Shown piece after piece: positions 123 to 49,095 of a stretch of DNA of 64,000 nt. The stretch covers positions 1 to 64,000 of the forward strand of contig JABCZM010000008.1 in assembly GCA_013289705.1 (NCBI GenBank), read 5' to 3'. Position 1 is the first letter of the stretch. Each line of letters starts with the position of its first letter. Position numbers and translations under genes: made by a program. The notes under the pieces are model-generated. The model ran no database searches. It was not told where the DNA came from and saw only the letters and a list, made by a program, of their open reading frames with translations. This DNA comes from Candidatus Saccharimonadota bacterium (GTDB taxonomy: Bacteria; Patescibacteriota; Saccharimonadia; Saccharimonadales; UBA4665).

Positions 123-878
123 TCAGTGAAATTCCTTTGCTAAAGCTGCCCTTTTATTGTCATCTGAAATAACTATAAGACCGGTAATTTCTGGACTGAA
201 TTGTGCTGCCAGCGCATCTTCACGGCCGTCTCCCGCATATAATATGGGGTAATGCTCTGGCCTACCAACTATCCGCGCGGCTAGGTATATCGAATAGTTG
301 GCGGGTTTGCAAAGTGAGTGCCGTATTTGGGGGTGCCTAGCATGTTCGCTTCTTAATTGATCCTGTCCGATAATCGCCCGGCTTGGGAAGGCTTGTCTTA
401 TGGGCAGAGCTTCTGAATCAATTCTTCTAAAAAATTCATATAACATCGATTCCGGACTTTGGGTCGCAATACCGGATCTTCGTTCCCTTTCGACAAGCAT
501 TTGTACAAGTGAATGGACACCTGGCATTAGGCGATCGATAGGATTAATGTCATCTCTCATTAGGTCGGTTATTATTTCTTCCTGTAAAGCACAGGCCCCG
601 AGTAATTCTTTGGCTGATAGTTCAGATAATCCTAGTTCTCTATGGATTACCTGAAGCACTCGTGCGGGGCTTTTGCCACGTAGTTTTTGTACTAGATCTT
701 GCGTGTACTTAATGGTAGAACCGGTTACTTGTTCCATGGTTGCGTTGAATGATGCGCTATGCAAATCACTTGTTTCGGCGAGCGTATGATCAAAATCAGA
801 CACAAACGTGACGTCCGGATCGTAGAACATGTCGCGTAGTGTATCAAGACTTCCGGCTCCCGCAAATATATTAGTCAT
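123..878 (-). CDS. HAD-superfamily phosphatase, last gene of the trp transcript
   Basis: This is a 251-residue haloacid-dehalogenase-type hydrolase, expected to remove a phosphate from a small metabolite in the cytoplasm; the substrate is unknown. Motif I is visible near residues 28-32 (DFDHT, the nucleophile and acid/base aspartates), and motif IV near the C-terminus as GDGREDA. An upstream ATG at 893 is possible, but I prefer 878 because AAAGGA lies about 7 bases ahead of it, and because it overlaps the end of the preceding trpC-kinase gene in an ATGACTAA arrangement typical of translational coupling. Its position after the TrpC-kinase fusion suggests it acts on a related sugar phosphate, but that is inference. 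Confidence 0.75.
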   Translation of the reverse strand: MTNIFAGAGSLDTLRDMFYDPDVTFVSDFDHTLAETSDLHSASFNATMEQVTGSTIKYTQDLVQKLRGKSPARVLQVIHRELGLSELSAKELLGACALQEEIITDLMRDDINPIDRLMPGVHSLVQMLVERERRSGIATQSPESMLYEFFRRIDSEALPIRQAFPSRAIIGQDQLRSEHARHPQIRHSLCKPANYSIYLAARIVGRPEHYPILYAGDGREDALAAQFSPEITGLIVISDDNKRAALAKEFH

Positions 879-2526
879 TACGTTTCCTTTCATATTGTTT
901 CCGATAAAATGAGTTATTTAATAGTACTTTTGCCGATTCGATTTGGGCAGCGTTGACAATAGTTTTTAGGTCTTCTTCAAGGCTCATGCTATTGGCGACC
1001 ATGCCCATAACGGTGCCAGCAAACACATCGCCGGCATTGGCAGGACTTAATGGTGTTATTTTTTGAGGTGGCACAAACTGTTGTATGTCATGACGCGACA
1101 AGACCGTGACGCCTGCGCTACCTTGCTTCCGAAATACAAACTGTAATTTCGGAAAGTTTGTGAGTAAGTCACCCTCTATCTTCGTAAGTACGTAATCATA
1201 TTCTTGTTGATTCAAAAATAAGTAGTCGGCCTTACTGATTAGTTTTAGCGAATCTTTAAGATTGTGACGCAAATGATAATGCAGCATATCGGTTGCTATA
1301 ACGGCTGGATGTTTCAGCTGTTCAAGGACTCTGAGTCCATTTGCTGGGTTCGATCCACTTAGTAGTACGTGTGTAGTGTTGCCAGAAAGGTTTTTGTTTA
1401 GCAATGGTTTGTAGTCTTTGTAGACGCCAAAATCAATCAATTCATCGCAGAGTTCAAAACTTACTGGATCATATGTGCCACTCCAACGAAACGTTTGTCC
1501 AGGTATTTCAGCTACATTTGCCACGCTTACTTTATCGCCAACAGATTGGCCTAATTTCGCAACCCCCAGGTCATTACCTATACCGCTCACAAGGTCAACG
1601 GGGACATGTCTGCTAGCAGCAATGCTGGCCAGCACACCGTTCCCTCCAATGTCAGGCTGTCCGTATGACTGGCCAATGAATGTGACGGTTGATAGCTCAG
1701 TAGCACCAAATACTAACAGTCGATTTATTGACCGTGAGTGAAGCTCGCTAAGCTTTTCGCGGATGTTGTCAGATTTCATCAGTACAGTCCCTATTAGTAC
1801 TGCATCGGCACCATTTTCTCGAGCAGATGCAATATCTTTAGCGCTGGTGATACCCGACTCGGCGACGAGTAGTACATTGTCTGGAACAGTGGCCGCAAAC
1901 TTTGAAAAAAGCTTGGTCTCCACAGTAAAAGTTCCCAAATCGCGACAATTAATGCCGATTATTTGTGCTCCCGCTTTAATACCACGATCTATTTCATCGA
2001 CTGAATGCACTTCTACCAAAGCGTACATCCCCAGTTCCGTACAGACCTTAAGCAGATCACACAATTGGTCTTGTGACAAAAGCGAAACAATCAATAAGAC
2101 TGCATCGGCCTCAGCAAGGTACGATTCATAGATTTGATATTGATCAAAAATGAAGTCCTTGCGGAGTATCGGGACGTTTGATTCTTGCTTGACCGTGGCG
2201 ATGTAAGACAAGTCACCCAGAAAATATCTACTCTCTGTTAAAACAGATATTGCATCTACAAACCCCGATTGCTCGTAGGTTTTACTAATGACGACAGGAT
2301 TAAAGTGCTTTCGAATTATTCCTTCTGACGGTGACGCTTGTTTTATTTCTGCTATCAGGCTACAGCGGCCAGCTTTAGTGATCCCTGCGCTAAAATCTCT
2401 TACCTCTGTTTTTCGCTTAGTCAAAGACTTTTTGAGTACGGCGAGGGGCCTTCGTTTCTTTAATTGTGTAAGCTCGTGTTGTTTGTTTGCTACTATATCG
2501 TCTAGGCTAATGCGCTCATCTTTCAT
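871..2526 (-). CDS. trpC: indole-3-glycerol-phosphate synthase fused to PfkB-type sugar kinase
   Basis: The 551-residue protein joins two enzymes. Residues 1 to about 262 are a complete TrpC beta/alpha barrel, which closes carboxyphenylaminodeoxyribulose phosphate to indole-3-glycerol phosphate. Its conserved residues are visible: EIK (60-62) before SPS, K123 in RKDF, E172 in VEVH, N193 in GINC and E223-S224 in AESG. Residues about 269-540 are a ribokinase/PfkB-like kinase with an N-terminal Gly-Gly motif (DIGGN) and a C-terminal anion-hole motif NAGD with the presumed catalytic D500. I know of no standard TrpC-PfkB fusion; the kinase substrate cannot be told. The start at 2526 has AAGGAG 8 bases upstream. 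The gene follows trpR and an attenuator, and overlaps the HAD gene by 8 bases. Confidence 0.88.
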   Translation of the reverse strand: MKDERISLDDIVANKQHELTQLKKRRPLAVLKKSLTKRKTEVRDFSAGITKAGRCSLIAEIKQASPSEGIIRKHFNPVVISKTYEQSGFVDAISVLTESRYFLGDLSYIATVKQESNVPILRKDFIFDQYQIYESYLAEADAVLLIVSLLSQDQLCDLLKVCTELGMYALVEVHSVDEIDRGIKAGAQIIGINCRDLGTFTVETKLFSKFAATVPDNVLLVAESGITSAKDIASARENGADAVLIGTVLMKSDNIREKLSELHSRSINRLLVFGATELSTVTFIGQSYGQPDIGGNGVLASIAASRHVPVDLVSGIGNDLGVAKLGQSVGDKVSVANVAEIPGQTFRWSGTYDPVSFELCDELIDFGVYKDYKPLLNKNLSGNTTHVLLSGSNPANGLRVLEQLKHPAVIATDMLHYHLRHNLKDSLKLISKADYLFLNQQEYDYVLTKIEGDLLTNFPKLQFVFRKQGSAGVTVLSRHDIQQFVPPQKITPLSPANAGDVFAGTVMGMVANSMSLEEDLKTIVNAAQIESAKVLLNNSFYRKQYERKRND

Positions 2527-2547
2527 TGATAGTTCTCCTTAGAAATT

Positions 2548-2640
2548 AAAAAACCTCCCGTGGTGGGAGGCATAAAGTTTTTCAAATTAACTTACATTAA
2601 TACGTCTTTAATTAGACTCCCGCGTAAAATTGGAAGTCCA
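2548..2640 (-). promoter_or_regulatory. trp attenuator (alternative hairpins and terminator)
   Basis: Between the trp leader peptide and trpC, the minus-strand RNA can fold in two exclusive ways. The terminator has arms CCTCCC (2570-2565) and GGGAGG (2559-2554), followed by six T's (2553-2548). The antiterminator pairs GGGAG (2621-2617) with CTCCC (2569-2565) and adds TAAAG (2610-2606) with CTTTA (2577-2573). A 1:2 stem pairs GACTTCC (2638-2632) with GGGAGTC (2621-2615). Segment 1 starts at the last base of the second Trp codon, so a ribosome stalled for tryptophan would mask it and free segment 2, as in the E. coli trp attenuator. Pairings were found by eye, not by folding software. Confidence 0.85.
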
Positions 2641-2691
2641 CCAGGCACCTTGTTGGCCAAAATTGGTGATAGTTGTGTGTAATTGGTTCAT
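2608..2691 (-). CDS. trpL: trp leader peptide with tandem Trp codons
   Basis: This is a 27-codon ORF starting at an ATG that overlaps the trpR stop as TAATG. AAGGAAAA lies just upstream as its ribosome site, inside the end of trpR. The peptide contains two adjacent tryptophan codons (TGG TGG, 2643-2638) at residues 17 and 18, placed directly before segment 1 of the attenuator. The rest is unremarkable (Asn, Gln and Thr rich). It is too short for ordinary gene finding. The position, codon choice and following terminator match the classical trp leader; it would sense charged tRNA-Trp, not make a functional protein. Confidence 0.88.
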   Translation of the reverse strand: MNQLHTTITNFGQQGAWWTSNFTRESN

Positions 2692-2945
2692 TACGTTTTC
2701 CTTAGTACCTGGAATCTGCCTTGGGCTAGTTCTTTTGATCCGCGAGTGACAGTGGCTACGCCGACGCCTAAATCGCTGGCGATTTGGTGTTGGGGTGATC
2801 CGCTGAGTAAACGCTTTACGATCTCAATCCTTCTGACGAATTCGGCGCGTTCATTATCAGTGGTAATACCTACCAATAGGTCTTCGAGTGTTGCCTCGTC
2901 TTTGATTGAATGAACTAATTGCACAAAGTCATGAAAATCAGGCAT
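2691..2945 (-). CDS. trpR: Trp repressor (TrpR) family regulator
   Basis: An 84-residue all-helical DNA-binding protein. The helix-turn-helix region reads as GVGVATVTRGSKEL, close to the E. coli TrpR segment GAGIATITRGSNSL, and the earlier RRIEIVKRLL matches the helix that carries the tryptophan-contacting Arg54. This is nearer to true TrpR than to the YerC/YecD branch, which ends in SRVNR-like sequence. It is shorter at both ends than E. coli TrpR (108 residues), and the residue equivalent to Ser88 appears to be Glu, so tryptophan binding should be tested. It sits directly after aroK with its own promoter and a TrpR-like operator, which implies autoregulation together with trpC. Confidence 0.9.
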   Translation of the reverse strand: MPDFHDFVQLVHSIKDEATLEDLLVGITTDNERAEFVRRIEIVKRLLSGSPQHQIASDLGVGVATVTRGSKELAQGRFQVLRKT

Positions 2946-2951
2946 GGGTAA

Positions 2952-2969
2952 ATACTAGCATACTAGTAC
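2952..2969. promoter_or_regulatory. TrpR-type operator overlapping the -10
   Basis: The minus strand contains the inverted repeat TACTAG-TATG-CTAGTA. The two CTAG cores are 4 bases apart, exactly as in the E. coli trp operator (ACTAG-TTAA-CTAGT), and the site covers the -10 of the trpR promoter, the same placement as in E. coli trp and trpR. The matching repressor gene begins 7 bases downstream. I saw no second copy of this spaced CTAG pair upstream of DAHP synthase. Confidence 0.8.
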
Positions 2970-2981
2970 GTTCTATGTCAA
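2952..2981 (-). promoter_or_regulatory. internal promoter of trpR-trpC
   Basis: TTGACA (2981-2976, overlapping the aroK stop codon) and TAGTAT (2957-2952) are separated by 18 bases. The ATG of trpR is only 7 bases past the -10, so transcription should begin at or next to the start codon, giving a leaderless mRNA; no Shine-Dalgarno sequence is present. Confidence 0.8.
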
Positions 2982-3514
2982 TACGGGGTTTTGTCCATGA
3001 GGTACAAAATTAAAGTTGCTGCTTGGTTGATGCTATTTCTTTCGGTGTCTATTCTCACGTCCATAACATCCAGGTATAGTCTGGTTCGTTGTTGTTCTAA
3101 AACTGTTAGTTCACTGAGTAATGTTGTCTCGCTCGTCAGCTTTGGGCGATTTGGGTCATTAGTAATTCGGCGTTCCAATACATCCGCCGGTGCGTGAAGC
3201 CACGCAACAAAACCCAGATTGCGAAGCGGCGGGATGTTTTCGGGTATGGTCACAATGCCGCCGCCTGTAGAAATGATGGCGTCCGTCGTATCTTCTAAGC
3301 TTGCCAACACAGCTGATTCGTGCGCACGAAAATAGCCCCAACCATGTGCCTCGACCGCGTCGGGGATTGACTGTCCCATAAGCTTTGCGGTCATCTTATC
3401 GGTTTCAAAGAGTTCTCTGCCGGTTATGGTGGCTAGGCGTCTGCCAATTGCACTCTTTCCTGTGCCTCGAAGGCCTACTTCGACGATGTTGTTGGGCTTT
3501 TGTGTGGTACTCAT
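2978..3514 (-). CDS. aroK: shikimate kinase
   Basis: 178 residues, a P-loop kinase that phosphorylates the 3-hydroxyl of shikimate, step five of the shikimate pathway. The Walker A motif GLRGTGKSAIG is near residues 14-24, the shikimate-binding GGG appears in STGGGIV, and the lid region carries RPKL. Length is normal for the family. The start overlaps the end of ilvE by 4 bases (ATGA). The stop codon lies inside the -35 of the trpR promoter. It is part of the aromatic operon read from the promoter at 7708. Confidence 0.92.
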   Translation of the reverse strand: MSTTQKPNNIVEVGLRGTGKSAIGRRLATITGRELFETDKMTAKLMGQSIPDAVEAHGWGYFRAHESAVLASLEDTTDAIISTGGGIVTIPENIPPLRNLGFVAWLHAPADVLERRITNDPNRPKLTSETTLLSELTVLEQQRTRLYLDVMDVRIDTERNSINQAATLILYLMDKTPY

Positions 3515-4421
3515 GACGGTACCTTTGTAAACAGTCCTGGATGTGTAGTTGGTAAATTGATGAATGATTCATGAAGTTTACGACTAATCGGCCCTTCTTT
3601 GCTGCTAATTTTAACATTATCAACCTTGGCGCACCACGAAATTTCTACGGCCGTACCGCAAAAGAATAGTTCGTCGGCAGTGTAGAGTTCGGTGCGGTTG
3701 ATTGTCCGTTCGACAACGGGGATGCTTTGCTCTTTTGCTAACTCAATAACAGTGCGCCGTGTAATGCCTTCCAGGATATCGGCATCGGTTGTGGGCGTAA
3801 TCAGCTCACCGTCTTTAACCATAAACAGGTTCATAACGGCGCCTTCGCCCACGTTACCAGCTTGATTAAGTAAAATTGCCGAATCGAACCCGGCTTGCTT
3901 GGCATCGTGAATGGCAAGTGACGAATTCAGGTAGCCACCGGAGGCTTTGGTACGCGGCGGCAGTGCATTATCGGCGTTGCGTTGCCAGCTTGACACGCAA
4001 ACGGATAGGCCTTTATCCGCTTCAAAGTACGAAGGCATACCAATAAGGTAGACGCTTAAATCGTAGTCGCCAGCGATGTCTGGCGAAAGCTGCAAGTCGG
4101 ATCGGTACACCAGTGGACGGGGATGTAGGTTGTACCAGTCGGCTTGTTTTTGGCTACCAATTCGACGATGGTACTTTTGATCGCCGCTTCGTCGAAATTA
4201 AATGGAAAGCGCAGTATTTTGCAGCTATTTTTCATGCGCTTTAGATGGTCGTCAAGCCGAAAGATGCCTACGGCTCCATCGGGCATTTGGTAGGCTTTGA
4301 TACCGGCAAACACACCTGCGCCGTAGTGTAGTGCATTTGTCATAACAGATACGGTTGCTTCTTCGATGGGCACAATGTTGCCACGGATGAAAGCGAAGGG
4401 GTATGGTTGAAATTCGGCCAT
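3511..4421 (-). pseudogene. ilvE: branched-chain/aromatic aminotransferase, frameshifted
   Basis: Two overlapping reading frames together make one class IV PLP aminotransferase. The N-terminal part runs from 4421 and the C-terminal part, which includes LVYRSD, GEGAVMNLF and EGITRRTVIEL, ends at 3511. Class IV enzymes usually read YIRPL here; the first frame reads YIPVH because of a run of four C's (4119-4122 on the plus strand as GGGG). Removing two bases restores the exact family sequence; adding one also restores the frame with an extra Pro. No classical slippery heptamer is present. It could be a consensus error in a homopolymer or a real lesion. In this operon the enzyme would transaminate the final keto acids to phenylalanine, tyrosine or branched-chain amino acids. 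Confidence 0.8.
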
Positions 4422-48732: not shown

Positions 48733-49059
48733 CTATGCAGCACGAGCTGGCAATATATGGCTGTGGTGCTCAGTTTTAAGAACAGCTTCGTAGCCACCCA
48801 TGCCGTTTTGCATCCAATCGCTAATACGTGCAACCGTGCGACTGGAAAGCTTGGTTTTGGCGATAATTTCGGTGTATTTGGCACCACTTTGGAGCATTTT
48901 TGCTGCTTCTAAGCGCGCACCAACCTCTGTTATTTCTTTTTCGGTCATCACATCGCGCAAGAAGTTTTGCATGGTTTTAACATCATCAATAGCAACCAAA
49001 GCAGAAGCTAACTGCTTGGCCTGTTCTGTCTGCAACACCGATGAAACTTGTTTTAACAT
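48733..49059 (-). CDS. TrpR/YerC-superfamily transcription regulator
   Basis: 108 residues from MLKQVSSVL. TMQNFLRDVMTEKEITEVGARLEAAKMLQSGAKYTEIIAKTKLSSRTVARISDWM matches the YerC/YecD branch of the TrpR fold. Longer in-frame ATGs at 49065 and 49209 fall within or before the promoter. The start is 8 bases past the -10, so the mRNA is leaderless, and a palindromic operator covers that -10, implying self-repression. A ligand is unknown. Confidence 0.82.
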   Translation of the reverse strand: MLKQVSSVLQTEQAKQLASALVAIDDVKTMQNFLRDVMTEKEITEVGARLEAAKMLQSGAKYTEIIAKTKLSSRTVARISDWMQNGMGGYEAVLKTEHHSHILPARAA

Positions 49060-49064
49060 GTCCA

Positions 49065-49095
49065 TTACTTTAGCAAAGTAAAGTAAGCTTGTCAA
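49065..49095. promoter_or_regulatory. promoter and palindromic operator of the TrpR-like gene
   Basis: On the minus strand TTGACA (49095-49090), 17 bases, TAAAGT (49072-49067). Over the spacer and -10 lies a perfect inverted repeat TTACTTTA-(6)-TAAAGTAA (49065-49086). Confidence 0.8.

Follow-up and report, generated by a model that had tools for sequence, protein, structure and literature searches.

A predicted TrpR operator and trpL attenuator in a trpR-headed operon of a Candidatus Saccharimonadota bacterium

Organization of the trpR locus

The window (the entire 64,000-nucleotide stretch analyzed here) carries near its first position a minus-strand trpR gene, which lies between an upstream run of genes ending in aroK and a downstream trpC fusion. 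In the direction of transcription, the features of this region are as follows.

2978-3514, minus strand: aroK, shikimate kinase, the last gene of an upstream aroF-tyrA-pheA-ilvE-aroK run
2976-2981, minus strand: -35 hexamer TTGACA, overlapping the aroK stop codon; the same hexamer is present in most relatives
2951-2970, minus strand: predicted TrpR operator CGTACTAGTATGCTAGTATT, with core TACTAGTATGCTAGTA at 2953-2968, assigned from sequence and conservation
2952-2957, minus strand: extended (TGC) -10 hexamer TAGTAT, overlapped by the operator's 3' CTAG box
2691-2945, minus strand: trpR, 84-aa tryptophan repressor, assigned by Pfam, profile, predicted fold, and tree
2608-2691, minus strand: trpL, leader peptide MNQLHTTITNFGQQGAWWTSNFTRESN, whose ATG overlaps the trpR stop codon (TAATG)
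2638-2643, minus strand: tandem Trp codons TGGTGG of the leader
2617-2621, minus strand: antiterminator segment GGGAG, lying 16 nt beyond the Trp codons and pairing with the terminator CTCCC
2553-2571, minus strand: intrinsic terminator GCCTCCC-ACCAC-GGGAGGT with a T run behind it
871-2526, minus strand: trpC, encoding indole-3-glycerol phosphate synthase with a fused PfkB-family kinase-like domain

The promoter, TTGACA-N18-TAGTAT, occupies 2981-2952 on the minus strand, and the 16-base palindrome core (TACTAG-TATG-CTAGTA) lies over its spacer and -10 hexamer; the preliminary description had noted the overlap with the -10. Only 32 bp separate the aroK stop codon (2978) from the trpR ATG (2945), and the operator lies within them; the reverse complement of 2941-3000 includes TATTGACATAGAACGTACTAGTATGCTAGTATTTACCCATG, with both the promoter and the palindrome. 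Among the 12 members of the Saccharibacteria clade to which this trpR belongs, the -10 hexamer ends 6 to 7 nt 5' of the trpR ATG in at least 9, a distance from which the trpR transcript is predicted to start at or next to the ATG, giving a leaderless mRNA. The aroK run may also read through into trpR. Given that a distance of just 32 bp separates trpR from aroK and that the two genes share a strand, the site could be imagined to act mainly as a roadblock to transcripts from the upstream aro operon, the local promoter being minor. We regard this as very unlikely, since the near-consensus extended -10 promoter stands at a fixed 6 to 7 nt from the ATG and is kept where the relatives' upstream sequences differ. 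Within the upstream run, the ilvE-like aminotransferase (3511-4421) is split over two overlapping frames (4056-4421 and 3511-4110), which suggests a frameshift or an assembly error.

Control of trpR-trpC by the operator, as originally proposed, is supported by position and conservation, with the qualification that the trpC in question is a trpC-PfkB fusion. The fusion is an unusual one of 551 aa, with the PfkB part C-terminal. No trpE, trpD, or trpF domains were found in the draft host genome; these genes may lie in an assembly gap or be absent, and the pathway looks either incomplete or interrupted by the end of the contig at position 1. A trpB-trpA-trpS cluster is located at the end of another contig (C13), with no operator in front of it at 2 mismatches. 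These genes may continue the trpR operon, whose own contig (C8) ends at window position 1; no end overlap between the two contigs was found, and continuity from trpC to trpB-trpA-trpS is a guess.

The trpR product groups with TrpR rather than with HisR/YerC regulators

The host protein matches the Pfam Trp_repressor family (PF01371) at 57.1 bits, above the cut-off of 27, and a profile built from the TrpR alignment matches Escherichia coli TrpR over residues 18-89 (E = 3e-12). Its AF2 model has a pLDDT of 89.7, and the top PDB matches are the E. coli TrpR-DNA complexes 1trr and 1tro (TM 0.80-0.82). In a tree built from 84 columns, which is poorly resolved at depth, host TrpR groups on the TrpR side, within a Saccharibacteria clade of 12 rows, and the YerC/HisR clade is separate with support of 99/92. 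The NCBIfam TrpR equivalog model TIGR01321 matches with an E value of 7e-14 at 52.1 bits, short of its cut-off of 67.25; a second Saccharibacteria TrpR (L096) clears this cut-off at 70.4. TIGR02531 gave no match at E = 0.001, and the protein lies outside the HisR clade. The name TrpR is thus supported by clade, fold, and operator and not by the NCBIfam cut-off, and to this extent the original identification of the gene was upheld.

The recognition helix reads ATVTRGS in the host and ATITRGS in E. coli, a likeness already pointed out in the preliminary description. Residues kept in the alignment with E. coli TrpR are T44, R54, R84, and G85 (the Trp-site positions), Q68, G78, A80, T81, and T83 (helix positions), and I57. 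Changes at DNA- or ligand-contact positions are R69H, K72A, A77V, and S88E. A77V, a super-repressor substitution in E. coli, offers a possible lead for the host protein.

S88E, together with changed 41/43 positions in the ligand pocket, raises the possibility that the repressor binds its site with histidine, indole, or a different aromatic metabolite as corepressor, in the manner of HisR, a member of the same fold family; Firmicutes members of the TrpR family respond to histidine (PMC9413887), and the host has no detectable trpE, trpD, or trpF. Several observations make this alternative improbable. The four Trp-site residues are kept, the tree and NCBIfam both set TrpR apart from the YerC/HisR clade, and the neighbors of trpR are trp genes and a leader with Trp codons. 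Moreover, the window's own YerC/HisR member has a different, HisR-type palindrome. HisR/YerC regulators share with host TrpR the family (PF01371), 20-bp palindromic operators, and autoregulation, but they form their own clade and have the consensus cacTTTAnnnnnnTAAAgtg (PMC9413887), a type represented in the window by the gene at 48733-49065 and not by trpR.

That second TrpR-family gene (48733-49065, minus strand) is YerC/HisR-like, with a TIGR02531 match of 53 bits, and is preceded by ACTTTACTTTGCTAAAGT at 49067-49084. In about 15 Saccharibacteria genomes, the orthologue likewise has a palindrome of the same ACTTTAC-N4-GTAAAGT type, matching the published HisR motif, in its promoter; this pattern suggests that the product is an autoregulated HisR-like repressor.

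The palindrome in the trpR promoter is conserved in position and spacing

We compared the host site with the E. coli trpL/trpE operator, which was retrieved from the annotated genome and checked to lie upstream of the annotated trpL-trpE. The two are identical at 14 of 20 positions, and the CTAG-N4-CTAG spacing is equal, as had been expected from inspection of the sequence. The site has the form of a GNACT-N8-AGTNC palindrome placed over the promoter of trpR, agrees with GTACT-N8-AGTAC at 9 of 10 positions, and overlaps the -10 hexamer.

A genome-wide scan, which had been suggested as a check, gave a divided answer. CTAG-N4-CTAG occurs 9 times in the 1.24-Mb host genome, against 8 occurrences of a reversed control pattern, and we rejected this count as evidence because it is at chance level; the remaining sites lie within ORFs or not beside recognizable trp or aro genes. 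The perfect 16-mer TACTAG-N4-CTAGTA, on the other hand, occurs once in the genome, at the trpR promoter, with one further site at one mismatch, inside an ORF. A loose scan allowing 3 mismatches returned 394 sites compared with 473 for the control, and a wider regulon based on it was likewise rejected, the sites being no more common than in the control. Given the single perfect copy, the host regulon is predicted to consist of trpR's own operon, narrower than that of E. coli. Since CTAG-N4-CTAG is not enriched, the significance of the site rests on its position and conservation.

Genomes of the family (93) and of the order (392) were searched for TrpR, a strong TrpR being defined as a match with E below 1e-30; 12 of the 392 genomes of the order have one. 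A CTAG-N4-CTAG pair lies within about 30 nt upstream of the trpR start in all 12 same-clade genes, with invariant spacing, and GTACT-N8-AGTAC with at most 2 mismatches is found upstream of the same 12 genes, compared with an expectation of 8.5% from dinucleotide shuffles. We also searched the 392 genomes for the extended palindrome TACTAGTNTNCTAGTA without reference to trpR. It was present in 11 of the 12 TrpR genomes and in 1 of the 380 others of the order (Fisher P = 2e-19), and the locus of the twelfth TrpR genome (L102) is one base off this sequence. At the same-clade loci, the sequence farther upstream of the operators is visibly not conserved. The absence of the palindrome in relatives had been named as the outcome that would speak against an operator; instead, it precedes every trpR of the clade and many distant Patescibacteria trpR genes.

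These data bear on the view that the palindrome arose by chance or reflects promoter shape in an AT-rich -10 region and is no repressor site. The background frequency of CTAG-N4-CTAG and the overlap of one half with the -10 hexamer agree with that view. Conservation in 12 of 12 genes at invariant spacing, amid upstream sequence that has otherwise diverged, and the co-occurrence with trpR argue against it so strongly that we give it almost no weight.

The relatives also show variations on the site. L089 and L100 have three tandem CTAG boxes in 8-bp steps, and L102 has the same arrangement with one diverged box. Three tandem CTAG boxes are also found directly before a separate trpC-like gene in one genome (L158; G074:C1:56148-56171), where TrpR may control more than its own operon. 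In another genome (G194; L155, L163, L164, and L095), the TrpR-type palindrome is found, in addition to its trpR site, at three intergenic positions that are not next to trp genes, within longer perfect palindromes of about 26 to 32 bp. We counted this against the operator reading; the long palindromes are possibly a repeat or terminator family. A second TrpR type heads trpE-containing operons at L096, L097, and L098 with a CTATTG-NN-ATAG-type palindrome, and two of the genomes concerned also have a CTAG-type trpR. Finally, in G122 (L093 and L013), TrpR is fused in frame to TrpB (tryptophan synthase beta) with a CTAG operator upstream, a possible self-regulating enzyme.

A trpL leader and a predicted attenuator follow trpR

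The preliminary description had named an attenuator which, with the operator, would make up both layers of trp control, and the parts of such an attenuator were found. trpL is a 27-codon ORF containing GAWWTS. A Shine-Dalgarno-like AAGGA lies inside the 3' end of trpR, and AAGGA or GAGGA occurs there in most relatives, whose leader peptides (SFGEQGAW, GFGQQGAWWNS, and similar) have the same layout. The GGGAG segment is kept in the aligned leaders while the encoded residue before it varies between W and R. In the fold of the host leader region, GGGAGUC has a second partner in GGACUUCC, which comes directly behind the Trp codons, so that the host leader follows the same 1:2, 2:3, and 3:4 pairing logic as the E. 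coli attenuator.

Both parts are present at 16 loci. There, the segment with the best pairing to the terminator arm starts 10 to 23 nt past the Trp codons; in 12 of the 16 leaders this segment outperforms shuffled sequences (P below 0.04), with starts 13 to 20 nt past the codons. No significant antiterminator was detected by this simple shuffle test in L104, L108, L109, and L110. Helices were scored per sequence, as counting column pairs in a single register undercounts them (the host stem is shifted by one column). Loci with a leader and terminator/antiterminator fall into about ten anonymous families, and no Rfam family matched within 2400-3100. The locus thus contains a leader ORF with tandem Trp codons, an antiterminator, and a terminator.

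Taken together, the palindrome is very probably a TrpR operator in trpR's own promoter, with the trpL attenuator as a second layer; Trp-dependent binding is predicted from the sequence. In the proposed mechanism, the Trp-loaded 84-aa TrpR would bind CTAG-N4-CTAG over the spacer and -10 hexamer of its own promoter and exclude RNA polymerase, so that abundant tryptophan would keep trpR and the trpL-trpC operon behind it repressed. Once tryptophan runs low, the apo form of TrpR would leave, and the operon would be transcribed as a leaderless or nearly leaderless mRNA from the trpR ATG, the 27-codon leader being translated directly after trpR. Stalling at TGGTGG would leave GGGAG free to pair with CTCCC, forming the antiterminator and allowing readthrough, whereas completion of the leader would cover GGGAG and let the terminator form.

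Relation to known trp regulatory systems

The host locus shares with E. coli trpEDCBA, trpL, and TrpR the CTAG-N4-CTAG operator over the -10 hexamer, the TrpR fold and recognition helix, and a tandem-Trp leader with antiterminator and terminator. It differs in that trpR is a separate locus in E. coli but heads the attenuated operon in the host, where the leader begins on the trpR stop codon, a leaderless mRNA is predicted, and the genome shows a single operator. The host arrangement, with trpR in first place and the attenuator between it and the enzymes, comes nearest to Chlamydia trachomatis trpRBA, in which trpR is likewise the first gene of an autoregulated operon and the trp genes come after an intergenic region (PMC6504234, PMC7755916). 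The chlamydial TrpL is doubtful, being long with nonconsecutive Trp codons, and YtgR has been proposed as its replacement (PMC6504234, PMC7755916). The host leader, in contrast, carries its Trp codons in tandem and belongs to an attenuator that is competent for pairing.

A survey of Proteobacteria regulons found TrpR to be conserved in gammaproteobacteria and absent from the other classes (PMC5343134). Searches of open-licence papers turned up no description of TrpR or of trp attenuation for Patescibacteria, which is not proof of absence. The comparisons, made at the level of sequence, support a familiar TrpR/TrpL mechanism in an unexpected lineage, in a compact arrangement and with strong comparative backing. 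What is distinctive is the presence of both layers in one trpR-headed operon, the predicted leaderless trpR mRNA, and the tandem CTAG boxes of some relatives. Gene regulation in Patescibacteria is little known, and many members have lost biosynthesis. Here, the two layers of tryptophan control known from textbooks provide a testable repressor-operator pair and attenuator, and homology to E. coli makes the DNA code readable. The operators also form a natural series, with single, tandem, CTAG, and CTATTG types, that gives access to the evolution of TrpR specificity and the age of the TrpR/TrpL combination.

TrpR and its predicted operator across Patescibacteria

A profile search (E = 1e-12) identified TrpR-family genes in 38 of 379 Patescibacteria genomes. 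Of 40 trpR-family loci outside the Saccharibacteria clade, 16 have GTACT-N8-AGTAC with at most 1 mismatch just upstream of trpR, compared with 0.27% expected from dinucleotide shuffles. Several of these sites are perfect, among them TGTACTATTGCAATAGTACA, TGTACTAGTACAATAGTACA, and TGTACTGTTGCGGCAGTACA, and the Patescibacteria sites fit the TrpR motif published for gammaproteobacteria, TGTAcTnGTnnACnAgTACA (PMC9413887). The predicted operator thus recurs next to trpR over much of the phylum, in many cases together with the leader attenuator. The genes after trpR are trpE, trpC, trpB, trpA, or trpS in many loci.

A trpR-headed operon combining TrpR repression with an intercistronic TrpL attenuator may be an old, phylum-wide Patescibacteria design, a proposal that we make tentatively and hold at somewhat below even chances. 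If it is true, TrpR and the CTAG code would have a far greater age or mobility than one would judge from gammaproteobacteria and Chlamydia, where they are known, and the leaderless autorepressed trpR mRNA and the tandem 8-bp CTAG arrays would be local elaborations.

Most loci without a site are members of different branches of the family, among them a group adjacent to hisS. In L133, L136, and L138, the TrpR-family genes lie directly 5' of hisS and are perhaps a histidine-responsive branch. At L108, trpR is followed by a Trp leader and then by trpS.
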